Source: an uncultured Bryobacteraceae bacterium
GTDB taxonomy: Bacteria > Acidobacteriota > Terriglobia > Bryobacterales > Bryobacteraceae
NCBI GenBank assembly: GCA_937924525.1
Contig: CALDSU010000005.1
Coordinates: 186,001 to 250,000 of the forward strand
DNA: 64,000 nucleotides
Direction: 5' to 3'
Notes under the pieces: model-generated
Told to the model about the DNA's origin: nothing
What the model saw: the letters and a program-made list of their open reading frames with translations, nothing else
The model's database searches: none
Shown: positions 37,871 to 50,020 of the stretch, one piece after another
How the letters are laid out: every line of letters starts with the position of its first letter
Numbering within the stretch: the stretch's first letter is position 1
Program-made: the position numbers and the translations under genes

Positions 37871-39094
37871 ATGAGGTTCTTTACCACTGCTTTCTTGTTG
37901 ATGCTGGCCACCTTACCCGCCGCGGCGCAGGAGCCGCTCACGCTCCACGAGGCGTTGGATCGCGCTTTGGCCGCGCATCCGCTGCTTCAGGTCAGCAGCG
38001 AGCGCATCCGGGTGGCGGAGGGCCAGCGGCGCCAGGCGGCGCTGCGGCCCAACCCCCGGCTGCTCGTGCAAACGGAGAACTGGGAGCCTTACGCCAGCCG
38101 GACCTTCTCCGCCTCCCGCTCCACGGAGAGTTTCCTGATGGTAAGCCAGCTTTTTCAAACTGCGGGCAAGCGCGAGTTGCGCGCCGAGGCGGCTGCGGAA
38201 GGAATCCGACTGAGCGAAATCGAGCGCGAACTGGCGCAGCAGCAGATCGCCGCGCGGGTCAAGTCGGCTTACTGGCGGGCGGCGACGGCGGCCAAACTGT
38301 ACGAACTGCTGCTCGCCAACGGGCGGAACTTTGATCAGATGGTGGAGTACCACGAGATTCGCGTGCGGGAAGGGGCGATGGCGGAGGCGGACCTGCTGCG
38401 CGTCCGGCTGGAAGCCGAACGCTGGCGCCTGGCGGCTAACACCGCGGACCTGGAGGCGCAGCGGACCCGCATTCTCCTGCAACGGGAGATGGGCCTGAGC
38501 GAGTTTCCAGCGGTCCGGCTGGCCGAGCCGCTGGAAGATCTCCGCCAGCCGCTGCTCGCGGATGCAGAGCAGGCGCTGGAACGCCGGGCCGAGTTGCGGG
38601 TGGCCGGGCAGGTCCTCGAGCAGGCCCGGGCCGTGCTGCGCGTGCAACAGGCCGAGGCGCACCCGGACGTCGACGTATCCTTCGGACTGAAACGGACCAA
38701 CGGCCTGAACACACTCGCGGGGATCGTCGCGTTTGCGTTGCCGCTGGCGAATCGCAACCAGGGCGAGATTGATAGCGCGCTGGCCCGGATTCGCGTCAGC
38801 GAAGCGGATATAAAAGCGCTGACCGCGTTGGTGCGAGCCGAGGTTCGCGCGGCCGACGTCGACGTACAAGTGCGGCGGCGGCAGGTGACCGAGACGTTCC
38901 GCGGCCTGCTCGACCAGGCGCTGGAAGCTTCGCGCATCGCGCAGGCCGCCTACCGGGAGGGCGGAGCGGAACTGCTGCGCCTGCTCGATGCGGAGCGGGC
39001 GCGCATCGAAGTGCAGATGCTCTACTATCAGACTCTGGGCGAGTATCACCAGGCGGTGGCGGCTTTGGAGACGGCCATGGGGGTGATCCGGTGA
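37871..39094 (+). CDS. czcC: Outer-membrane efflux channel (CzcC/TolC family)
   Basis: This is the outer-membrane factor of a tripartite metal efflux pump. The 407-residue protein has a signal peptide (MRFFTTAFLLMLATLPAAAQ) and two repeats of the outer-membrane efflux protein domain, each with long amphipathic helices and 'LRPNPRLLVQTENW' between them. The ATG lacks an evident ribosome-binding site. It heads an operon with the periplasmic adaptor (GTGA overlap) and the RND pump, in the order C-B-A seen in Czc systems. The symbol reflects operon type rather than a known metal. Confidence 0.88.
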   Translation: MRFFTTAFLLMLATLPAAAQEPLTLHEALDRALAAHPLLQVSSERIRVAEGQRRQAALRPNPRLLVQTENWEPYASRTFSASRSTESFLMVSQLFQTAGKRELRAEAAAEGIRLSEIERELAQQQIAARVKSAYWRAATAAKLYELLLANGRNFDQMVEYHEIRVREGAMAEADLLRVRLEAERWRLAANTADLEAQRTRILLQREMGLSEFPAVRLAEPLEDLRQPLLADAEQALERRAELRVAGQVLEQARAVLRVQQAEAHPDVDVSFGLKRTNGLNTLAGIVAFALPLANRNQGEIDSALARIRVSEADIKALTALVRAEVRAADVDVQVRRRQVTETFRGLLDQALEASRIAQAAYREGGAELLRLLDAERARIEVQMLYYQTLGEYHQAVAALETAMGVIR

Positions 39095-40314
39095 ACAGGC
39101 TGCCAACATTTGCACTGGCCGTTGCACTCATGTGCATGGCTTGCACAAGGGAACCCGAAGCGGGCGGGCGGGTGAGCGCCAAAGTCCAGCCGCCGGCCGG
39201 GGCCGCCGCCCCAGACGAAGTCCGTTTGAGCGCCGCCGCTCAGCGGCAAGCCGGCGTCGCCGTGGCGGAGGTGGCCACCCGCCGGATGGCGCGCACCTTG
39301 CGCGCGGCGGGCCGCATCACGCAGGACGAGAACCGCACCTGGCGGGTGGGCGCCGCCTCCGAGGGCCGGGTGGAGCAGATTCTGGCCAACGTGGGCGACC
39401 GCGTGCAAACGGGCATGGTGCTGGCCCGCTTGCACAGCCACGATATCCACGAATCCCGGGCGGAGTACCAGAAAGCCAAGTCCGAACTCAACCGGGTCAA
39501 GACCGCCGAAGAGTACGCCCGCCGCTCCCGGGACCGCGCAGCGCGCCTGTACGAACTCAAGGCCGCGTCCCTCGAACAGAAAGAACACGCCGAGGCGGCG
39601 CTGCGGTTCGCCCAGTCCGCGGTCGCCAACGCGGAGGTCGAACTGAACCGCACCCGCCTGCACCTGGAGGAATTCCTGGGTATTCCCGCCGAGGATCCCC
39701 ATTCCGACGAACCCCACCACTTGCACGAGGAGGATCTGATTCCGGTCCGCGCGCCCGCCCCCGGCGTGATCGTGGCGCGGAATGTCAGCCGCGGCACGGT
39801 GGTGACTCTCTCCACGGACCTGTTCCTCATCAGCGATCTGGCGAGCGTTTGGCTGATTGCCGAGGTGCATTCCGAGCACCTGGCCAGCCTGCGTTCCGGC
39901 ATGCCCGTGCGCTTGCAGGTAGCCGCTTACGGCGACCGGACATTCTCGGGCAGGATCGGCCGGGTGGGCGAAGCCCTCGATCCGGAGACCCGCACCGTGC
40001 AGGTGCGCGTGGAGGTTCCCAACCCGCACGGCCTGTTGAAGCCGGAAATGTACGCGACGGCCGAAATTGAGCTCGGGGAGTCGGCGCCCGCGCTCTACGT
40101 GCCGCTGGAAGCAGTGCAGGAAGTCCGGGGCGCCAACGCGGTGTTTGTCGAGCGGGCGCCGGACCTCTTCGTGGTCCGGCCAGTAGAGTTGGGCGAGAAC
40201 CGGGAGGGGATGGCCGAAGTGAGGCGAGGCGTGACGGCGGGCGACCGCGTCGTGGTCCGCGGCAGCTTCATTCTCAAGTCGGAGTTCCTCAAAGCCTCCC
40301 TTGAGGAAGAGTGA
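39091..40314 (+). CDS. czcB: RND periplasmic adaptor subunit (CzcB-like)
   Basis: This membrane-fusion protein of 407 residues links the RND pump to the outer-membrane channel. A hydrophobic start with cysteines (LALMCMACT-like end near residue 18) suggests a signal peptide or lipoprotein, though the lipobox is poor. The barrel-sandwich and helical hairpin follow ('VRVEQILANVGDRV', then a coiled coil from about 120 to 195). Residues 201-215 are His/Asp-rich ('EDPHSDEPHHLHEED'), a likely metal-binding loop. The beta-barrel contains 'LASVWLIAEVHSEHLASLR'. The GTG start shares four bases with the czcC stop. Confidence 0.9.
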   Translation: MNRLPTFALAVALMCMACTREPEAGGRVSAKVQPPAGAAAPDEVRLSAAAQRQAGVAVAEVATRRMARTLRAAGRITQDENRTWRVGAASEGRVEQILANVGDRVQTGMVLARLHSHDIHESRAEYQKAKSELNRVKTAEEYARRSRDRAARLYELKAASLEQKEHAEAALRFAQSAVANAEVELNRTRLHLEEFLGIPAEDPHSDEPHHLHEEDLIPVRAPAPGVIVARNVSRGTVVTLSTDLFLISDLASVWLIAEVHSEHLASLRSGMPVRLQVAAYGDRTFSGRIGRVGEALDPETRTVQVRVEVPNPHGLLKPEMYATAEIELGESAPALYVPLEAVQEVRGANAVFVERAPDLFVVRPVELGENREGMAEVRRGVTAGDRVVVRGSFILKSEFLKASLEEE

Positions 40315-40320
40315 CCGGGG

Positions 40321-43300
40321 ATGCTCGAACGCGTCATCGATTTCCACCTGAAGAACCGCTGGCTGGTGCTCGTAGGTCTGGTGTTGCTCATTCTGCTGGG
40401 CGTCCGCTCCCTGTTGCTCACGCCGGTGGACGCGTTCCCCGATCTCACCAACAATCAGGTCGTGGTGCTCACCGAGTGCGCCGGCATGCCGCCTAGCGAG
40501 GTAGAGCAACTGGTCACGTTCCCCATCGAGAGCTCCCTCATGGGCCTCCCCCGCACCGAGCAGATCCGGTCGGTTTCCAAGCTGGGCTTGTCGATGGTCA
40601 CCGTGGTGTTCGACGATGACGTGCCGACCTACTTCGCGCGCCAGATTGTCAATGAGCGCGTGCAGGAAGTACGCTCGCGGCTTCCCGCGGGTCTGGAGCC
40701 GCGCCTGGGCCCGGTGGCCACCGCGTTCGGCGAAGTCTACCAATACACGCTCGAATCCGCGTCGCTCAACGCGATGGACCTGAAGACGCTGCACGACTGG
40801 ACCATCAAGAACCAGTTGCGAACCATCCCCGGGGTGAACGAGGTGAACACTTGGGGCGGCGAAACCCGGCAATACCAGATCGAAGTAGACCCGGTAAAAC
40901 TGCAAGGCTACGGGCTCACCTTGCGCGAGGTGTTCGAGCGGGTGCGCGAGAACCACACCAACTTCGGCGGCGGATTCATCGAGCACGCCTCCGAACAATA
41001 CACGGTGCGCGGACTGGGGCGGGCCGCCGATGGCGCAGACCTCGGGAGGATCGTGCTGACCTCGCGCCATGGCGCCGCCGTGCTGCTGCGCGACGTCGCC
41101 GTGATCCAACCGAAGCCCATGCCGCGGCAGGGGGCCGTACTGCGGGATGGCCGTGGGGAAACCGTCTCCGGCATGGTGATCATGCTGAAAGGAGAGAACG
41201 GCAAGACGGTCATCGAGCGGGTGAAGGCCAGACTGGCGACGCTCAACCTGCCCCCGGGGGTCAGACTGGTTGCTTTCTATGACCAGAGCGAGGTGATTGA
41301 CCGGACCGTCGCCACGGTGAAGCGCAATCTGCTGGAGGGCGGCGCGCTGGTGATCGCCGTCCTGCTGCTGTTTCTGGGCAATCTGAAAGCGGCGCTGATC
41401 GTCGCCGCCGTCATTCCGCTCTCCATGCTGGTGGGCTTTACGGGCATGTTTTGGTTCGGCATCTCGGCGAACCTGATGTCGCTGGGCGCCATCGACTTCG
41501 GCATGATTGTGGACGGCGCGGTGGTGATGGTGGAGAATGCCGTGCGGAAGCTTCATCAGGCCGAGCCCGGCGATCGCGCGGGAGAGCTGATCCGTCTGGC
41601 GGCGCATGAGGTGGCCCGTCCCATCACCTTCGCCGTCGCCATTATCATCGCGGTCTACCTGCCGATTTTCTTTCTCGAGGGGCTGGAGGGCCGCATGTTC
41701 CGGCCCATGGCGGTGACGGTGTGCGCCGCGCTGATCGGATCCCTCGTTTTCGCGCTGACCGTGGTCCCCGCGGCCATTGGAGTCGTGTTGCGAAAACCGT
41801 CGCCGGAGCGGCGCGAGCCCTGGTTCGAAGCGGTCACCGAGCGCTACCGGAGAACGCTCCAGGTGCTGCTGCGCCATCAGGTCCGCACCATCGCCGCGGC
41901 CCTCGGGTTGATCGGCGGAGCGCTCGCCTCGCTGGCGTTCATCGGCACCGAATTCATGCCCCGTCTGGACGAAGGGTCCATCCTGATCGAATCCCGCAAG
42001 CTGCCCGGCGTTTCCCTTACGCAGTCCATTGCGCTCAGCCACAAGGCGGAACAGATCATTAAAGGGTTTCCGGAAGTGGCCAGCGTGGTGACCAAACTCG
42101 GCCGTCCGGACTTGGCGACCGAGGCGATGGGAATCCACCAGGGCGACGTCTACGTGCTGCTGCATCGGAAGGAACAATGGCCGCCGGGCCAAACCAAGGA
42201 ACGCCTGATCGAGCAAATGGCGGATGCGCTCCGGCGCCTGCCGGGCGTCGCGTTTAATTTCACGCAGCCGATGGCGATGCGGCTGGACGAGGTCATCAGC
42301 GGGATCAAGGCGGATGTCGCGCTGAAGATTTTCGGCGAGGATCCCCGCGTGCTGGAGCAAACGGCCGAACAGGCGCTCCGGTTGCTGGCCGCCGTGCCGG
42401 GGGCGGCCGATGCCCAGATGGAAATCGTTTCCGGGGTGGCCGAACTGCTGGTGGAGGTCGACCGAGCCGAACTGGCGCGCTTTGGGCTGAATGTCGCCGA
42501 CGTCCGCGACGTAGTGGAGGCGGCGGTGGGCGGACGCCACATTACAGAGATGATCGAGGGGCAGCGCCGGTTCGACATCACGCTACGCCTGCCCGAATCC
42601 TTCCGCCGGGATTTGGACTCGGTCCGCCAGCTCCTGCTGGTGGCGCCGGGTGGGGAGCGGGTCCATCTCGGGCAGGTGGCGCGTGTCGTGGCGGGGCGGG
42701 GAGCCGAGGCGATCACTCGCGAAAACGGCCAGCGCCGGATCGTGGTGCAATGCAACGTCCGGGGTCGCGATTTGGGGGGCTTCGTCGACGAGGCCCAGGC
42801 ACGAGTCGCCGCGAGGCTCAGCCTGCCCCCCGGTTACACCGTGAACTGGGGCGGACAGTTCGAGAACCAGCGGCGAGCCAACCGGCGGCTCCTGCTGGTG
42901 GTGCCGGCAAGCATCCTCATCATTTTCGGCCTGCTGTTCGCCACCTTCGGCAACGTCCCGCAAGCGCTGCTGATTCTCTTGAACGTCCCGTTCGCGCTGG
43001 TGGGCGGCATCGCGGCGCTGTGGCTGCGCGGGTTGAATCTGAACCTGTCCGCATCCATCGGGTTCATCGCCCTGTTCGGCGTCGCCGTGCTGAACGGGAT
43101 CGTGATGGTGAGCTACATCAATCGTTTGCGCGCGCAAGGACAACCGCTCCGCCAAGCGGTGGTGGAAGGCGCCGCGGTGCGCCTGCGCCCCGTGCTGATG
43201 ACCGCCCTGGTCGCCAGCCTGGGCTTCTTGCCGATGGCCTTGTCCTCGGCTCCGGGCGCCGAAGTCCAGCGCCCGCTGGCGTCCGTGGTGATTGGGGGGC

Positions 43301-43392
43301 TGGTCACCGCCACCTTGCTGACTTTGTTGGTGCTGCCCGTGTTATATCCCTGGTTTTCCCCGCGGGAGGATGAACCGATTCCGGCTGCGTAA
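40321..43392 (+). CDS. czcA: Heavy-metal efflux RND pump (CzcA-like)
   Basis: This proton-driven inner-membrane pump exports divalent metal ions. The 1023-residue protein has twelve helices in two homologous halves. Helix 4 carries 'DFGMIVDGAVVMVEN' (about 397-411), the acidic signature of the CzcA group for divalent cations (Zn, Co, Ni, Cd); the monovalent CusA group differs here. 'SLGFLPMALSSAPGAEVQRP' lies in the C-terminal half. It starts six bases after czcB. No metal regulator (CzcR/S or MerR type) is next to the operon. Confidence 0.94.
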   Translation: MLERVIDFHLKNRWLVLVGLVLLILLGVRSLLLTPVDAFPDLTNNQVVVLTECAGMPPSEVEQLVTFPIESSLMGLPRTEQIRSVSKLGLSMVTVVFDDDVPTYFARQIVNERVQEVRSRLPAGLEPRLGPVATAFGEVYQYTLESASLNAMDLKTLHDWTIKNQLRTIPGVNEVNTWGGETRQYQIEVDPVKLQGYGLTLREVFERVRENHTNFGGGFIEHASEQYTVRGLGRAADGADLGRIVLTSRHGAAVLLRDVAVIQPKPMPRQGAVLRDGRGETVSGMVIMLKGENGKTVIERVKARLATLNLPPGVRLVAFYDQSEVIDRTVATVKRNLLEGGALVIAVLLLFLGNLKAALIVAAVIPLSMLVGFTGMFWFGISANLMSLGAIDFGMIVDGAVVMVENAVRKLHQAEPGDRAGELIRLAAHEVARPITFAVAIIIAVYLPIFFLEGLEGRMFRPMAVTVCAALIGSLVFALTVVPAAIGVVLRKPSPERREPWFEAVTERYRRTLQVLLRHQVRTIAAALGLIGGALASLAFIGTEFMPRLDEGSILIESRKLPGVSLTQSIALSHKAEQIIKGFPEVASVVTKLGRPDLATEAMGIHQGDVYVLLHRKEQWPPGQTKERLIEQMADALRRLPGVAFNFTQPMAMRLDEVISGIKADVALKIFGEDPRVLEQTAEQALRLLAAVPGAADAQMEIVSGVAELLVEVDRAELARFGLNVADVRDVVEAAVGGRHITEMIEGQRRFDITLRLPESFRRDLDSVRQLLLVAPGGERVHLGQVARVVAGRGAEAITRENGQRRIVVQCNVRGRDLGGFVDEAQARVAARLSLPPGYTVNWGGQFENQRRANRRLLLVVPASILIIFGLLFATFGNVPQALLILLNVPFALVGGIAALWLRGLNLNLSASIGFIALFGVAVLNGIVMVSYINRLRAQGQPLRQAVVEGAAVRLRPVLMTALVASLGFLPMALSSAPGAEVQRPLASVVIGGLVTATLLTLLVLPVLYPWFSPREDEPIPAA

Positions 43393-43490: not shown

Positions 43491-44699
43491 ATGAACAGCC
43501 GTTTGAAGTTTCTTGTTGTTTTCGCCTCCACCGCGCTCGTCGTCATGTTGCTGCTCGGCGCGGTGATGGGCAAGAGCGCCCCGCCGGAAGGGCCCTACCG
43601 GCACCTGGCCGTGTTTACCGACGTGCTCAGCCGGATCAAGAGCGAGTACGTGGAAGAGCCCAACATGAAGATGGTGACCGTAGGCGCCGTCACCGGTCTG
43701 CTCGAATCCATCGACCCCTTCGCCAGTTACCTCAACGCGGATCAGTACAAGGATTACCTGAAGAAGAAAGACAGCTATAAGGGTGACGTGGGGCTGGTGC
43801 TGGCCAAGCGCGCCGGGTTCCTCTCCGTGGTGGGGACGATTCCTGGCTCCCCGGCGGCGCAGGCGGGCATGATGGCGGGGGACTGGATCGACGCCATTCG
43901 CGGCGTCGCCACGCGGGACATGCCCCTGGCTTACGCCGAGATCCTGCTGCGTGGCGAACCGGGCTCCACGATCGAGCTATCCGTGTTCCGCAGCCGGCGC
44001 CCCGACCCGCAGAAGATTACCCTGACGCGCGCCGAAATCTCGTATCCCAGCCTCCAGACGCGGATGCTGGCGGGAGAAACCGGTCATTTGCGGGTGGAAA
44101 CGCTCGAAGCCGGCAAAGTGGCGAAGGTAGCCGAGGCCCTCCGGCGACTGGAGGCGGAGGGCGCCAGGCGCATTCTGCTCGACCTCCGCAACTGTTCCAC
44201 AGGCGCGCCAGAGGACGGCTGGGCTCTGGCCAACTTGTTTCTCGACAAGGGAACGCTCGGTTACACGCAAGGGCAGCGCGTGCCGCGGAAGAACTCTGAG
44301 GCGGACCCGGGCAAGACGGTCTGCCGGTTGCCCCTGCGGGTGCTCGTCAACCGGGGAACGGCGGGGGCGGCGGAAATCGCCGCCGCAGCTCTGCTGGATA
44401 ACAAGCGCGCCGAAGTCGTCGGCGACCGGACACAGCAGGTCGGATCCGTGATCCGTCCGATCCCCCTCGATGACGGGGGCGCGCTGATCCTGTCCGTCGC
44501 CAAGTTCTACTCCCCGTCTGGCAAGGCGATCCCGGATGCCGGCGTCACCCCCACCATCAGCAAACCGGAACCCGAGTCACAGGTGGATTTTGACGAGAAC
44601 GGCAATCCCCTCACGCAACAAGTGACGCCTGAGCAGCAGGAAGCGCACCGGAACGCGCTGGAAAGATACGTAGAGCAGATCGCGGAGGAATGGAAATAG
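43491..44699 (+). CDS. CtpA/S41-family PDZ protein lacking catalytic residues
   Basis: This 402-residue protein has an N-terminal membrane anchor or signal (about 7-27), an N-terminal helical segment ('LLESIDPFASYLNADQYKDY'), a PDZ domain (about 95-180, 'GTIPGSPAAQAGMMAGDWID') and an S41 core (about 195-355). In active C-terminal processing proteases the dyad is Ser in GSASASE and Lys 25 residues later in GKG, with Gln four beyond. Here the first reads 'GTAGAAEI', placing Gly292 at the Ser; the second reads 'TQQVGSVI', placing Val317 at the Lys and Ile321 at the Gln. Proteolysis by this mechanism is therefore unlikely, although the fold and PDZ domain look intact. A binding, adaptor or regulatory role is inferred. 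Confidence 0.88.
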   Translation: MNSRLKFLVVFASTALVVMLLLGAVMGKSAPPEGPYRHLAVFTDVLSRIKSEYVEEPNMKMVTVGAVTGLLESIDPFASYLNADQYKDYLKKKDSYKGDVGLVLAKRAGFLSVVGTIPGSPAAQAGMMAGDWIDAIRGVATRDMPLAYAEILLRGEPGSTIELSVFRSRRPDPQKITLTRAEISYPSLQTRMLAGETGHLRVETLEAGKVAKVAEALRRLEAEGARRILLDLRNCSTGAPEDGWALANLFLDKGTLGYTQGQRVPRKNSEADPGKTVCRLPLRVLVNRGTAGAAEIAAAALLDNKRAEVVGDRTQQVGSVIRPIPLDDGGALILSVAKFYSPSGKAIPDAGVTPTISKPEPESQVDFDENGNPLTQQVTPEQQEAHRNALERYVEQIAEEWK

Positions 44700-44748: not shown

Positions 44749-45066
44749 TCAGAGGGTTTTCAAATAGGCCATCAGATCGGCCCGTTCGGTGTCGTCCAGC
44801 ATCTCTTTGTAAGCCGGCATGCCGTTGCCGCCCTCGTCAATCTTCGCCATGACATTGGCGTCGGTCGGCTTCTTCCCGTTTGCCATCTTTTCTTTCTTGA
44901 ACAAGCCCTTCAGGGAAGGCCCCATCTTCTTTTCGTCGCTGTCGTGCGCATGACACACGCCGCACTGCTCGAAGACTTCCTTTCCTTTGGCGGCGTCCGC
45001 CGCCCTTGCCGGGATAGCCACCAAGGCTGCGCCGAGCCCCAGAATCAAAAGAGTTGACTGTCGCAT
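44749..45066 (-). CDS. Small periplasmic cytochrome c (class I)
   Basis: This 105-residue protein has a signal peptide (MRQSTLLILGLGAALVAIPARAA) and one haem motif, 'CGVCH' (within residues 35-39). The sixth-ligand methionine is likely in 'GGNGMPAY' near residue 80. The layout 'GKEVFEQCGVCHAHDSDEKK ... MGPSLKGLF ... LMAYLKTL' is a standard class I cytochrome c. It is a soluble electron carrier; partners are unknown. There is no ribosome-binding site, and TACACT lies eight bases before the ATG. It diverges from the DUF2064 gene, with 24 bases between start codons. Confidence 0.93.
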   Translation of the reverse strand: MRQSTLLILGLGAALVAIPARAADAAKGKEVFEQCGVCHAHDSDEKKMGPSLKGLFKKEKMANGKKPTDANVMAKIDEGGNGMPAYKEMLDDTERADLMAYLKTL

Positions 45067-45074
45067 ATTTTTAG

Positions 45075-45080
45075 AGTGTA
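45075..45080 (-). promoter_or_regulatory. -10-like TACACT before the cytochrome c gene
   Basis: On the minus strand TACACT ends eight bases before the ATG at 45066. This spacing predicts leaderless transcription. Confidence 0.35.
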
Positions 45081-45090
45081 CCGTTTTCCT

Positions 45091-45720
45091 ATGCCGCCGA
45101 TGGTTATCGTGTTCGCCAAGGCCCCGATCCCGGGCAGGGTGAAAACGAGGCTGATCCCGCTCCTCGGGGGGGAGCGGGCCGCGGCGCTGCATGCGGCCTT
45201 GGTCCGGGACCAGATCCTGCTGCTTCAATCGCTTGCCGGGACAGTTGCCTGCGAACTGCACACCGACGAGGCTACGGATGCCTGGACCTGCCTCGGGGTT
45301 TCACAGAAATTGCAGGCCGGCGGGGACCTGGGAGAGCGGATGCTGGCGGCGCTGGAGACAGCCTTGGCTTCCGGCCATTCCTCGGCCTGTATTCTGGGCG
45401 GCGATATCCCCGCCTTGCCCGCCGCACACCTGCTGGGCCTGCTGGATGAACCCGGAGACGTCACGTTTGGTCCCGCCGAGGATGGGGGCTTCTGGGGTAT
45501 CGCCGTCCGCCGGGTGCATCCGGCTATGTTCCGCCAAGTGCGGTGGTCCGCGCCGGATACGCTGGCTCGCGCGATCGGCGCGGCGCGGGGCTGCGGACTG
45601 TCCGCCGGGTTGGCCGCCTCCTGGTGGGATGTCGACACGGCCACCGATGTGCGGCGTCTCCAGGCCCTTGCCGCGCCGCCTCCTCATTTAGCCGCCTGGC
45701 TTCGAGACACTGTTCGATAA
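45091..45720 (+). CDS. DUF2064 (TIGR04282) glycosyltransferase-like protein
   Basis: This 209-residue protein has the nucleotide-sugar-transferase-like fold of the TIGR04282 family. The start 'MPPMVIVFAKAPIPGRVKTRL' is the family N-terminus with the nucleotide-binding basic residues, and 'ILGGDIPALPAAHL' contains the metal-binding Asp. 'VTFGPAEDGGFWGIAVRR' and 'WWDVDTATDVRRLQAL' complete the pattern. The substrate is not known; the family is often near sugar or lipid modification genes. The ATG at 45091 is preferred over an upstream GTG at 45076. The Oar-like receptor starts 11 bases after its stop. Confidence 0.85.
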   Translation: MPPMVIVFAKAPIPGRVKTRLIPLLGGERAAALHAALVRDQILLLQSLAGTVACELHTDEATDAWTCLGVSQKLQAGGDLGERMLAALETALASGHSSACILGGDIPALPAAHLLGLLDEPGDVTFGPAEDGGFWGIAVRRVHPAMFRQVRWSAPDTLARAIGAARGCGLSAGLAASWWDVDTATDVRRLQALAAPPPHLAAWLRDTVR

Positions 45721-45721
45721 T
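45716..45721 (+). promoter_or_regulatory. -10-like GATAAT before the Oar-like receptor gene
   Basis: GATAAT overlaps the stop codon of the DUF2064 gene and ends ten bases before the ATG at 45732. It could give the receptor its own near-leaderless transcript. Confidence 0.25.
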
Positions 45722-45731
45722 TGAAGAATCG

Positions 45732-48700
45732 ATGGGGTTCCTACTCTTCCTGGTCGTCCTTCCTCTCTGCGGCCAAGTCACCAGTTCCGTGATCTCGGGA
45801 CATGCCGCCGACAGTTCCGGGAGGCCGGTCGCCGGGGTCCTGGTGCGCGCGGAGCGCAAGACCGGCGGCCTGGTCCGCGAGTCCGTCACGGCGCGGGACG
45901 GAAGCTACACCCTGGCCGAACTGGAGCCCGCCGATTACCGGGTGACGGTAACCGATGAGCGATTTGAACCCGTGGTCATCGATCCGGTGGTGGTCGCGGT
46001 AAACACCCGCCGGCGGGTCGACGTGCGCCTGGCCGTCCGGGGGATGGCGCAGACGGTGGAAGTCTCCGCCCGGGCGGCGGCGGTCTCCGCCGAGTCCTCC
46101 GAACTGGCGCTGGTGCTCGACCGCGGGCGCATTCAGGATCTGCCCCTCAACCGCCGCGATTTCCTGCAACTCAGCCTGCTGGCGCCCGGAGTCGCGGCGC
46201 CGGTGCAGGATTCCGAGCTGTCCACCCGCGGTTCCTTCGCCATGCATGCGTCGGGCGCGCGGGAAGAGGCCAATAACTTCCTGATGGACGGCGTCGACAA
46301 CAACGATCCCTATCTCAACACGTTCGCCCTCCAGCCGCCGGTCGACGCCATTCAGGAGTTCAAGGTTTCCACCAGCACGCACAGCGCGTTGTACGGACGC
46401 AATGCCGGGGCCCAGGTGAATATCATCACCCGGGGCGGCGGCAACCAGTTTCACGGATCGCTGTACGAGTTTTTCCGCAACCGGGCGCTCGACGCCCGCA
46501 ATGCGTTCGAAGGCCCAGAGCGGCGGAAACTGATCCGCAACCAATTCGGCGGAGCGGCCGGTGGCGCGCTCGCGCGCGACCGCACCTTTTATTTCGCCAA
46601 CTTCGAAGCCCTCCGGGAGCGGCGCGGTTTCAGCCGGGCTTCCCGCGTGCCCACGGTCCCGCAGCGCGAAGGCGTCTTCGCCCAAACCGTGGTGGATCCG
46701 TTTACCCAGCGGCCATTTCCCGGCAACGCAATTCCGCGCAGCCGCATCTCGGCGCTCGCGCCGCGCGTGCTGAAACTGTTCCCGCTCCCGAACCAGCCCG
46801 GGACGTTGAATTTTCTGGGCCAGCCCGTGCTACGCGAGTCCCTGACGCAGGGCCACACGCGCCTCGATCACCAGCTCACTGGACGCGACCAGTTCACCTT
46901 CCGCTACAGCCTCGGCGTGCAGGACCTGTTCGAGCCGTTTACCGAGGACCTCGCCGAGTTGCCGGGTTTCGGCAATGAAGTCGACAACCGCGGCCACAAC
47001 GCAATGCTGCACCACACCCGGGTCGTCAGCCCGCGAACCTTCCATTCGCTGCGCTTGGGCTTCGGGCGGGCGTTTCGCCAGGTGCGCCCGGAGAACTTCA
47101 CGCGCGATGTCGGCCGCGAGTGGGGAGTGCCCTGGCTGAACGTCCGCCCGCGCGATTTCGGCTACCCGCTGTTCAACGTCGCCGGCTTCCCCGCAGTCGG
47201 CGATGCGGCCCAACTCCCCATCCGGCGGGGAACCGACACGTACCAGTTGATCGAGACGATGTCTCTGCTGCGCGGATCCCACAACGTCCAGTGGGGCGGC
47301 GAGGTGCGCCACTCGCGGCTCAACGGCTACCTGGATTACTTCGCCCGCGGCTCGTTGACCTTCTCCGGGGCGCTCTCGGGTGCGGGCCTTGCCGACTTGC
47401 TGCTCGGGTTCCCCACTTTCGGCATCCAGGCGCAGTTCGACAACCGGCAGCGGCTGACCAGTTCGGCCTATCACTGGTTCGTGCAGGACGACTGGCGGGT
47501 GACCCGCTCCCTGACGCTGAACCTTGGCCTGCGCTACGAACTGCTGACGCCTCCCGTCGATCCCGAGAACCGGATGTCCATTCTCGATCCGGCGGCGGGC
47601 CGCATCGTGAGGGTAGGCAGCGAGGGGGTTTCGCGCTCCGGCCTGCGCGCCGACCGCAACAACCTGGCGCCGCGCGCCGGCTTCGCCTGGAACCCGCGCG
47701 GCGGCCTGGTGGTGCGCGGCGGCTACGGCATTTACTACGACTCCGGCATGCAGGTGGTCAACTCGTCGCTGTATTTCAATCCGCCCTACTTCTCGGTGCG
47801 GGTGTTTTTCCCGACGCAAACCTCTCTGCTGACGCTGGACAACCCGTTTGCGGGCGGGATCACGCCGCCGCCGTCGCCGAATACGCTGAGCCCGGATCTC
47901 CGGGCCGCGTACGCGCAGCAATGGAATTTCGGCGTGCAGCAGCAGGTGGGCGGCGTCAGCACGGTGTCCCTGGCCTACGCGGGCGCCAAGGGCAGCCATC
48001 TGGTCCGTTCGCGAGACTTGAATCAACCGCGCCCCGCGCCGGGGAATCTTGCGTCGCGCCGCCCCTACCCAGCGCTCGGGTCGATCTTCTACACCGAAAG
48101 CGGCGCCAATTCTTCGTACCACTCGTTGCAGAGTTCGCTCGACCGGCGGCTGACGCGGGGCCTTTCGCTGCTGGCCTCCTATACGTGGTCGAAATCGATC
48201 GACGACGCCAGCGCGTTTCTCGGCAACAAAGCAGACAAGAACTTTCCGCAGGACAGTTTGAATTACCGGGCCGAGCGCGGGCTGTCCAGTTTCGACGCAG
48301 CCCACCGCGCCGCCGCCGCGGTGGTCTACCTGCCGCCGGGGCGGGCCTGGTGGCGGCGGAATCTCGAATTGCGGACCATCTTCCAGGCGCAGTCCGGACA
48401 GCCGTTTACGCCCATCCTGCGGTTTGACAATTCGAACACGGGGAACACCGGCGGCATCTTTGGCAACGACCGGCCGGATTTGACGCGCGATCCCCGGCTG
48501 GCGGAGCGGTCCGCGGCCCGGTGGTTCGATCCCACCGCCTTCGCGATTCCCGCGCCGTTCACCTTCGGCAACGCGGGACGCAACATCGTCCGCGCTCCGG
48601 CCTTTGCCTCGCTGGACGCCGCCCTGGCGCGCCGTTTTGTGCTGCGCGAGGGGATCTGGCTCAGCGCGGACGTGCAGGCGTTCAACGTAGCCAATCGCGT

Positions 48701-48809
48701 GAACCTGGATCTGCCCGAGCGGTTCGCCGACGAACCGTCAACCTTCGGCCGGATCCTGTCGGCCAGAGCGCCCCGGCAGGTGCAGTTCGCGTTGCGGTTG
48801 ACCTGGTAG
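45732..48809 (+). CDS. Oar-like TonB-dependent outer-membrane receptor with carboxypeptidase-regulatory domain
   Basis: This 1025-residue outer-membrane protein starts with a short signal (MGFLLFLVVLPLCGQ). A carboxypeptidase-regulatory-like beta domain follows (about 17-100, 'ISGHAADSSGRPVAGVLVRA'), then a plug domain (about 105-240, with 'DRGRIQDLPLNRRDFLQLS' and 'NNFLMDGVDNNDPYLNTF'), and a long beta-barrel that ends in an aromatic residue ('FALRLTW'). This architecture is greatly expanded in Solibacter-type Acidobacteria and is thought to import oligosaccharides or peptides. No TonB box is recognisable by eye. No SusD partner is adjacent. Confidence 0.92.
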   Translation: MGFLLFLVVLPLCGQVTSSVISGHAADSSGRPVAGVLVRAERKTGGLVRESVTARDGSYTLAELEPADYRVTVTDERFEPVVIDPVVVAVNTRRRVDVRLAVRGMAQTVEVSARAAAVSAESSELALVLDRGRIQDLPLNRRDFLQLSLLAPGVAAPVQDSELSTRGSFAMHASGAREEANNFLMDGVDNNDPYLNTFALQPPVDAIQEFKVSTSTHSALYGRNAGAQVNIITRGGGNQFHGSLYEFFRNRALDARNAFEGPERRKLIRNQFGGAAGGALARDRTFYFANFEALRERRGFSRASRVPTVPQREGVFAQTVVDPFTQRPFPGNAIPRSRISALAPRVLKLFPLPNQPGTLNFLGQPVLRESLTQGHTRLDHQLTGRDQFTFRYSLGVQDLFEPFTEDLAELPGFGNEVDNRGHNAMLHHTRVVSPRTFHSLRLGFGRAFRQVRPENFTRDVGREWGVPWLNVRPRDFGYPLFNVAGFPAVGDAAQLPIRRGTDTYQLIETMSLLRGSHNVQWGGEVRHSRLNGYLDYFARGSLTFSGALSGAGLADLLLGFPTFGIQAQFDNRQRLTSSAYHWFVQDDWRVTRSLTLNLGLRYELLTPPVDPENRMSILDPAAGRIVRVGSEGVSRSGLRADRNNLAPRAGFAWNPRGGLVVRGGYGIYYDSGMQVVNSSLYFNPPYFSVRVFFPTQTSLLTLDNPFAGGITPPPSPNTLSPDLRAAYAQQWNFGVQQQVGGVSTVSLAYAGAKGSHLVRSRDLNQPRPAPGNLASRRPYPALGSIFYTESGANSSYHSLQSSLDRRLTRGLSLLASYTWSKSIDDASAFLGNKADKNFPQDSLNYRAERGLSSFDAAHRAAAAVVYLPPGRAWWRRNLELRTIFQAQSGQPFTPILRFDNSNTGNTGGIFGNDRPDLTRDPRLAERSAARWFDPTAFAIPAPFTFGNAGRNIVRAPAFASLDAALARRFVLREGIWLSADVQAFNVANRVNLDLPERFADEPSTFGRILSARAPRQVQFALRLTW

Positions 48810-48968
48810 AGGGCGGGTGGAGCGCGGTCCGGCGCCGTGGTTGCCGTCGCGCCGGCGGGGAACGGAAGTTCCGCTGCGCGCTGAAACAGGAGGGGCAACG
48901 GCCTCTCTCCCAGGCGTTTGCTTGACGTGGCGGAATTTCGCGCCATTCCCCGCACTTTCCCGTTCCCG

Positions 48969-48976
48969 ACCGATAA
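48969..48976 (+). promoter_or_regulatory. Sigma-28-like -10 element before flbD-motAB
   Basis: ACCGATAA differs from the flagellar sigma-28 -10 consensus GCCGATAA at one base and lies 20 bases before the flbD ATG. The expected -35 (TAAAGTTT) is not matched at the proper spacing, so support is only partial. Confidence 0.3.
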
Positions 48977-48996
48977 GGATCTTGGCGGACAGAGCC

Positions 48997-49209
48997 ATGA
49001 TCCGGCTGACCCGGCTCAACCACGAGCCCTTTATCCTGAACTCCGACTTGATCGAGTACCTGGAGATGACCCCCGACACGGTCATCACCCTGACCACGGG
49101 GCAGAAACTGATGGTGCACGAAACGGCCGAAGATGTCGTGGAGCGCATCATCGCGTTCCGCCGGGCGATTGCGAGCCAGTGGGGGGCGGGGGATGGCGGC
49201 AAAGGCTAA
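48997..49209 (+). CDS. flbD: Flagellar protein FlbD/SwrD
   Basis: This 70-residue protein has the whole FlbD family pattern: 'MIRLTRLNHEPFILNSDLIE', 'DTVITLTTGQKLMVHE' and 'VERIIAFRR'. In Bacillus the homologue SwrD raises flagellar torque by supporting stator gene expression. Its location directly before motA, with a 17-base overlap, fits that role. The ATG at 48997 matches the family start exactly. The preceding 187 bases after the receptor gene hold no other gene. Confidence 0.93.
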   Translation: MIRLTRLNHEPFILNSDLIEYLEMTPDTVITLTTGQKLMVHETAEDVVERIIAFRRAIASQWGAGDGGKG

Positions 49210-50020
49210 TGCGCGCGGCGCCAGCCGCGCGGACCTGGCGACGCTGGCCGGCCTGCTGCTCGCCCTCGGGGGAATCCTTGGGGGGATGATCCTGGAGGGC
49301 GGAGAACTCCGGGAAATCTTCCAGCCCACCGCCGCGCTCATCGTGCTCGGCGGGACGGTGGGCGCCGTCCTGGTGACCTCGCCAATGAGCGCGGTCAGAC
49401 GCTCCTTCCGCGCCTTCCTCGAGGTGTTTATCGAGAAAAACCCCCGTCCGGAAAGCGTGATCGATCAACTGGTCGCCTACGCCACCAAGGCGCGCAAGAA
49501 CGGCATCGTGTCTCTCGAGGAAGAAGTCAGCCTCATTCAGGAGCCGTTCCTCCGCAAAGCGCTCATGCTCGCCGTCGATGGCACCGACCTTCAGGAACTG
49601 CGCAAAATGATGGAACTCGAAATCGAACTGGAAGAGCACCACGTAGAGGCGGAAGCCAAAGTGTTCGAGTCCGCGGGCGGCTACGCGCCGACCATCGGCA
49701 TTATCGGCGCGGTAATCGGCCTGATTCAAACCATGAAGCACCTGGCCAACATCGAAGAGGTGGGACACGGCATCGCGACCGCGTTTGTCGCCACCATCTA
49801 TGGCGTGGGCTCGGCGAACATCCTGTTTCTGCCCGCGGGCGGCAAAATCCGCGCCCGCGCCCAGAGCCGCATGCAGCTCAAGGAGATGATGCTGGAGGGC
49901 GTCCTCAGCATCGTGGAAGGCATGAATCCCAAACTGATCCGGGGAAAACTCGAAGCCTACGCGCTCGGCGCGCCTTCCCGCTCCCCGGACCTTGCCGCCG
50001 CGCCGGGCGGTAAAAAATGA
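49193..50020 (+). CDS. motA: Flagellar motor stator protein MotA
   Basis: MotA forms the ring of the stator complex and, with MotB, couples ion flow to flagellar rotation. The 275-residue protein has four membrane helices: one near 14-35, one near 43-65, and the pair near 165-210 ('GGYAPTIGIIGAVIGLIQTM' and 'IATAFVATIYGVGSANILFL'). The cytoplasmic loop between carries charged residues that contact the rotor. The ATG at 49193 follows a G-rich stretch and lies inside the end of flbD. The MotB start overlaps the stop. Confidence 0.95.
   Translation: MAAKANARGASRADLATLAGLLLALGGILGGMILEGGELREIFQPTAALIVLGGTVGAVLVTSPMSAVRRSFRAFLEVFIEKNPRPESVIDQLVAYATKARKNGIVSLEEEVSLIQEPFLRKALMLAVDGTDLQELRKMMELEIELEEHHVEAEAKVFESAGGYAPTIGIIGAVIGLIQTMKHLANIEEVGHGIATAFVATIYGVGSANILFLPAGGKIRARAQSRMQLKEMMLEGVLSIVEGMNPKLIRGKLEAYALGAPSRSPDLAAAPGGKK

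Follow-up and report, generated by a model that had tools for sequence, protein, structure and literature searches.

A predicted CtpA-type pseudoprotease in an uncultured Bryobacteraceae bacterium and its relatives across Acidobacteriota

Active and inactive proteins of the S41 fold

In P. aeruginosa, the S41A protease CtpA is activated by LbcA, an adaptor with a TPR domain (PMC11021448), and degrades cell-wall hydrolases (PMC11021448; PMC12569750). Its gene is part of the operon envC-ctpA-PA5135, in which PA5135 is the orthologue of yibQ/sddA (PMC12569750). An N-terminal dimerisation region has been described for the protein, and the same study reports that activity in vivo is lost with S302A or K327A, that a G246 mutant is nearly as severe as S302A, that the effect of H84A is moderate, and that the effect of Q331A depends on the substrate, being minor with one and clearer with a second (PMC11021448). 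In B. subtilis, the PDZ-gated S41A protease CtpB has a Ser309-Lys334-Gln338 triad, and replacement of Gln338 by Glu is reported to have abolished its activity (PMC3808539).

The S41 fold is also found without catalytic residues. RBP3/IRBP, a vertebrate protein of S41 origin, lacks them and binds ligands (PMC11750400). Its ligands are retinoid and fatty acid, and structures of RBP3/IRBP match the model of the acidobacterial protein described below with Z of 14.7-18 and 18-20% identity, a likeness of fold alone. The pseudoproteases CspC, MamO and iRhom, of protease families other than S41, are described as keeping a protease fold for a non-proteolytic job, similar to what is proposed here. Among the open-access matches listed, a set that leaves subscription journals and preprints mostly uncovered, there was no report of a bacterial S41 pseudoprotease, nor of any S41/CtpA protein from Acidobacteriota that is inactive.

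Layout, fold and active-site positions of the window protein

The gene considered here lies at 43491..44699, on the plus strand as are all features of it given below, in the window, i.e., the whole 64,000-nucleotide stretch of contig CALDSU010000005.1 (assembly GCA_937924525.1) that was analysed. It has an ATG start and an uninterrupted ORF of 402 codons, and its assignment as a CtpA-like pseudoprotease gene draws on Pfam, NCBIfam and structure-database alignment. The S41 core domain (residues 197-356; 44079..44558) was assigned from Pfam, where Peptidase_S41 (PF03572) matches above cut-off with an E of 1.4e-30. It is preceded by a PDZ domain (residues 97-185; 43779..44045) that has a PDZ_6 match at residues 117-165 (E 6.6e-8) and a structural match to a CTP PDZ domain with Z 15.2. 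The CtpB_N-like model of Pfam scored 20.1 bits, under its cut-off, and NCBIfam TIGR00225 (prc) scored 190.7 bits, below the curated cut-off of 218.6.

The AlphaFold2 model, built with 52 sequences, has a mean pLDDT of 82.6 and a pTM of 0.75. A helix predicted at residues 3-26 (43497..43568), hydrophobic by eye, may be a signal anchor or a signal peptide; the export signal was judged from this hydrophobic N-terminus alone. The helical region that follows (residues 35-92; 43593..43766), with predicted helices at 35-52, 59-74 and 83-92 and low pLDDT (about 45-57) over residues 31-60, is likely to be the equivalent of the N-terminal dimerisation region of CtpA, given the model and a fold match to CtpA/CtpB. 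At the other end, a predicted helix at residues 380-399 (44628..44687), together with a conserved C-terminal pattern, probably corresponds to the CtpA C-terminal dimerisation region. The top structural matches of the model were CtpA of H. pylori and of P. aeruginosa, and CtpB, with Z of about 35 over 339-366 residues. The window protein thus resembles P. aeruginosa CtpA in fold and in its order of N-terminal helices, PDZ, core and C-terminal helix, and it shares the fold and the PDZ-gated S41A architecture of B. subtilis CtpB. Read from sequence and model together, the S41A architecture, with an S41 core, a preceding PDZ domain, N-terminal helices and an export signal, is present.

What differs is the active site. 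The closest PDB sequence match of the window protein is P. aeruginosa CtpA, and the alignment runs without gaps across both active-site motifs, with GTAGAAE on GSASAAE and QQVGSVI on FGKGSVQ. Nucleophilic Ser302 is replaced by Gly292 (44364..44366), general-base Lys327 by Val317 (44439..44441) and the third-site Gln331 by Ile321 (44451..44453), with the spacings of 25 and 4 residues retained; the CtpB triad is likewise absent. The same alignment places Phe77 (43719..43721) at the His84 position and Thr237 (44199..44201) at Gly246 of the NPGG motif, so that five of the five mutationally probed positions of P. aeruginosa CtpA are replaced. The initial annotation had named the same three replacements and called the alignment firm on the 25-residue spacing, and on both counts it holds; its interval of 44355-44444 covers the Ser and Lys sites but stops just short of the third. 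A shifted alignment that would place another Ser and Lys in the active site was excluded, since the motifs align without a gap and all five positions agree. On the sequence evidence it is near certain that the protein has no Ser/Lys catalytic mechanism, and sequence and model together mark it as a predicted pseudoprotease of the CtpA type, with the catalytic residues lost and the fold kept.

Four S41 regions were found in the own genome. Besides the window gene, they include the paralogue with an intact dyad that the initial annotation had suggested looking for, a CtpA of 529 aa (L001) with Ser, Lys and Gln that is 31% identical to the window protein. A second CtpA paralogue (L002; 27% identical) has Ser, Lys and, at the Gln site, Glu; by analogy it may itself be impaired, because the same change abolished CtpB activity (PMC3808539). 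The fourth region (L004) looks tricorn-like by sequence inspection.

Distribution and history of the window-type clade

Window-type proteins, CtpA-like and of roughly 370-460 aa, occur throughout the Acidobacteriota sample. When 199 genomes of the phylum were searched with the window protein (P0001), 198 had at least one match and most had two or more. The main set of 95 rows consists of the window protein and one window-type match from each of 94 genomes, in 40 family-level groups; conventional CtpAs (L157 and others) were left out. Both this tally and that of 30 own-family rows given below concern best matches to a dyad-less query, taken without motif selection. Ser and Lys are both present in only two of the 95 rows (L167 and L186, both of group f25), the dyad being lost in the other 93. 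The residues at the Ser site are G in 81 rows, N in 4, S in 3, Q in 3, W in 2, A in 1 and E in 1, and the Lys site holds Lys in 3/95 and Val in 6/95. A check of homologues for a conserved Gly-Val at the dyad had been suggested; loss of the dyad is indeed general, and Gly is common at the Ser site, but Val is rare at the Lys site. His is found at the His84 position in 0/95 rows. The third-site Gln is kept in 80/95, most replacements being in the family of the window protein; by sequence, loss of all three catalytic residues is not the norm of the phylum.

Similar results came from two other samples. In 20 further genomes, each from a different one of 20 other groups and picked for a best match that resembled a conventional CtpA, 30 loci were examined and yielded 11 short relatives (367-406 aa, 11 further groups), none with both Ser and Lys; weaker short matches (e.g., in G002, G013, G045 and G102) stand outside this count. 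A scan of the genome collection kept 80 of 272 relatives, and all of these 80 are Acidobacteriota by record titles. None of these named loci has Ser and Lys together, 67/80 have Asp at the Lys site, and 73/80 have Gly at the Ser site, a count that was partly selected for, as one search pattern includes the Gly of GTAG. The conventional CtpAs of the phylum kept Ser and Lys in 36/36 rows (17 + 19); their length is 487-554 aa in 16/17, and the 17th (399 aa) reaches the end of its sequence stretch. The two types also differ in the carboxylate loop of the PDZ domain, where the Gly at position 99 has a weight of 1.00 in conventional CtpA; the clade, which retains Gly101, mostly has Asp, Glu, Ser or Gln there. 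Because the position-99 Gly is mostly replaced, PDZ peptide binding may be altered or lost in the clade.

In the window's own family, a full-length relative with E below 1e-100 was found in 57/61 genomes, the own genome counted. The relative in G214 is split in two pieces over two contigs, and in this search no window-type gene was found in G203, G241 or G256. Thirty rows, i.e., the own protein and the 29 best-scoring (L198-L226) of the 57, were read at the active site. Ser and Lys occur together in 0/30, and the Ser site is free to vary (G9 D7 S5 N4 R3 T1 E1). The lost Lys site (position 317) is Asp in 25/30 and the lost Gln site (321) is Arg in 27/30; the window protein has neither the Asp nor the Arg. 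As judged from these sequences, the catalytic loss in the window gene is not a lone mutation.

Conventional CtpAs, with which P. aeruginosa CtpA groups, are separated from window-type proteins by a branch with support of 100/99 in a tree of 57 rows and 100/100 in a tree of 68 rows, both computed without the catalytic columns and with no root inferred. The f25 rows sit within the window-type clade, adjoining L170 (100/99, 57-row tree), which keeps the Lys and has Gly at the Ser site. Besides an intact Ser/Lys/Gln, L167 and L186 have the Asn-x-Gly-Gly motif, retaining Asn235 and Gly237 without the His; an EnvC-type gene lies directly upstream of each and a YibQ-type gene is next. Their sequences are compatible with catalysis either retained or regained, and some clade members are therefore not dead. 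A single loss common to all dyad-less rows was rejected, as an AU test disallowed grouping them (p 1e-65). Since the f25 rows nest inside, the dyad-less rows are not one group, and either repeated loss or loss followed by regain would be needed. Repeated loss seems likelier because f25 also keeps Asn235 and Gly237, and it fits better, too, with a Lys retained without Ser in L170. Assuming that loss cannot be reversed and that the tree is rooted between the two CtpA clades, the sequences would require at least three independent losses, i.e., in L170, in L171 and in the rest; the placement of L171 is firm in the 57-row tree and weak in the 68-row tree.

Selection on the relatives was estimated with the Nei-Gojobori method in a custom script, from the 120 closest of 990 pairs at 70-97% identity. 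The median dN/dS was 0.070 and the highest 0.233 for the 109 pairs with dS of 0.1-1.5; these include at least one conventional CtpA pair (L190/L191), and the window gene, whose nearest relative found is 65% identical, is outside them. By this measure the window-type clade is under purifying selection. It had been argued at the outset that the protein was kept rather than decaying, its role being presumably one of binding or regulation. That this type of gene is maintained is borne out by the low dN/dS of the relatives and by their presence across the own family; the argument first given for it, an open frame of 402 codons, is true of the frame but weak alone.

Gene neighbourhoods and proposed function

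Neighbour genes were called with a rough script, clustered and compared with family models, each cluster being named from one representative (the names IF3, ribosomal proteins, NAD kinase and HU by reading alone); seven loci in which the caller found no anchor gene were read by family models instead. Of 65 rows from outside Terriglobia, 27 (18 groups, both f25 rows among them) have an EnvC-type gene whose end lies no more than 200 bp upstream. The term EnvC-type is used loosely, the representative scoring 91 bits against an NCBIfam EnvC cut-off of 270. RuvX, usually with MltG, is upstream in 36/65, ThrS is downstream in 21/65 and a YibQ-type deacetylase gene is next in 8/65, and in another 8/65 none of EnvC, RuvX/MltG, ThrS and YibQ was found beside the gene. 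In the 11 extra rows from further groups, EnvC precedes the gene in 8 and YibQ follows it in 8. Many clade members thus occupy the envC-x-yibQ slot that holds an active ctpA in P. aeruginosa. Ten of the 95 rows (L012, L025 and L027-L034; groups other than f1 and f2, flanks of 1.5 kb or less) are outside both neighbourhood sets; RuvX is upstream in 7/10, ThrS downstream in 7/10, and EnvC present in 0/10. At six loci of five groups (L147, L152, L163, L166, L169 and L174), the next or next-but-one gene downstream encodes a large protein (about 550-670 aa) of one cluster, whose representative, from L174, matches TPR models. By analogy, this TPR-type protein recalls the LbcA adaptor.

A different arrangement is seen in Terriglobia outside the window's family. 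In 78 rows (the named loci L052-L114 less L057 and L071, plus loci of the same class, one row with too little flank being dropped), the start of a PBP1A gene lies no more than 500 bp downstream in 55 and no more than 3 kb downstream in 63, with variable genes on the opposite side. That coupling to PBP1A holds in general was rejected for the non-Terriglobia classes and for the window's family, where FmdB is downstream in 31/45 rows and a PBP1A-type match is nearby in 1/45.

The window gene itself has an efflux set for its upstream neighbour (CusCBA-like, OEP, HlyD and ACR_tran; window 37871-43392). The gene directly upstream is ACR_tran, with no EnvC gene in that position. Convergent with the pseudoprotease gene is a small cytochrome c gene (window 44749-45069, minus strand), and the same neighbour cluster has a member in the equivalent place in L048 and L049. 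Beyond it, window 45076-50020 encodes a DUF2064 protein and then an outer-membrane beta-barrel protein with a carboxypeptidase-regulatory-like domain, followed by FlbD and MotA, possibly the start of a flagellar cluster. The single PF00912 match and the two M23 matches of the genome lie away from the window gene, and there are no cell-wall genes among its immediate neighbours. The cell-wall link is not shown by the window gene's own neighbours, and gene neighbourhood is in general weak evidence for physical partners.

With moderate confidence, we propose that the protein is a predicted membrane-anchored, periplasmic CtpA-type (S41A) pseudoprotease that serves, non-proteolytically, as a scaffold or binding protein for peptidoglycan enzymes. 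It probably binds rather than cuts, because nearly all sampled members of the phylum that were read keep an inactive copy, often by cell-wall genes, and a maintained binding function is likely because variation at the catalytic site goes along with retention of the PDZ domain, the core and the terminal helices. That the clients are peptidoglycan enzymes we infer from the gene context of the clade together with the degradation of cell-wall hydrolases by active CtpA. Under this proposal the protein would not cut by a Ser/Lys mechanism and would retain oligomerisation; its PDZ domain and former substrate tunnel would bind unfolded or C-terminal segments of peptidoglycan enzymes, and the bound clients would be held, positioned or shielded, instead of being degraded as by active CtpA. 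Depending on the lineage, clients could be EnvC and its amidases, MltG, a YibQ-type deacetylase or PBP1A. Clade members in the operon of the cell-division amidase activator would then amount to a CtpA turned scaffold; the window gene itself lies outside such an operon. For the phylum as a whole we suggest, more tentatively, that Acidobacteriota have a second CtpA-type protein beside the ordinary CtpA, a non-proteolytic scaffold in the envC-x-yibQ operon that is coupled to PBP1A in Terriglobia, with at least three independent active-site losses (on the assumptions of irreversibility and rooting given above) and with f25 keeping or regaining Ser/Lys/Gln.

A possible, if doubtful, alternative is that the protein is a regulatory subunit of active CtpA, which would tune proteolysis in a dominant-negative way through mixed oligomers or by competing for the adaptor or substrates. 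The intact paralogue in the same genome, the two or more matches in most genomes of the phylum and the apparent retention, in the model, of regions matching the oligomerisation parts of CtpA all agree with this, but the conventional paralogues are a distant clade, as the low identities of L001 and L002 illustrate, and are mostly of 487-554 aa. No linkage of conventional and window-type genes was seen at the 17 conventional loci, but with about 1 kb or less per side at 12 of them this carries little weight. Lpo lipoproteins are the comparison for PBP1A activation, and the window protein might in their manner activate or assist a peptidoglycan synthase, PBP1A above all, rather than serve as a scaffold for hydrolases. 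We consider this unlikely: the closeness of PBP1A in 55/78 other Terriglobia rows, where the genes on the opposite side vary, speaks for it, yet the window gene has no PBP1A gene next to it, just one of the 45 own-family rows has one nearby, and in other classes, where the gene usually neighbours EnvC or RuvX/MltG, none turned up beside it.

It is very improbable that the protein is still a peptidase through other residues, for example Thr290 or Ser319. Although Thr290 is present in 92/95 clade rows, at a position where conventional CtpA mostly has Ser (15/17), and Ser319 is common in the clade, Thr290 lies two residues ahead of the nucleophile site, there are further replacements at the Lys, at the NPGG Gly and at the position of His84, and within the clade no Lys or His is conserved to 80% or more. 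Lys338 of the window protein is not a relocated base, because its stretch AKFYSPSGK reads AKYYTPSGR in the active CtpA L001. Hardly more credible is a relic decaying in the window genome. The protein does depart from the conserved Asp317 and Arg321 and from the TYG pattern of its own family, but its ORF is uninterrupted, its clade is under purifying selection, and its end branch (0.51 and 0.46 in two of the trees computed) is like the 0.34-0.68 of family neighbours represented by single rows. Decay as an explanation was rejected on the dN/dS and the distribution of the clade.

CtpA-type proteases are known as degraders that restrain peptidoglycan hydrolases. A phylum keeps a dead copy of CtpA, and many of its families have it in the same operon slot; this suggests a binding or scaffolding function that is separable from cutting, and whether active CtpA also scaffolds becomes testable. 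The clade also offers a natural series of catalytic states, from dead through one residue left (L170) to intact (f25). Finally, the annotation "S41 family peptidase" in Acidobacteriota may denote a protein that is unable to cut by the known mechanism.
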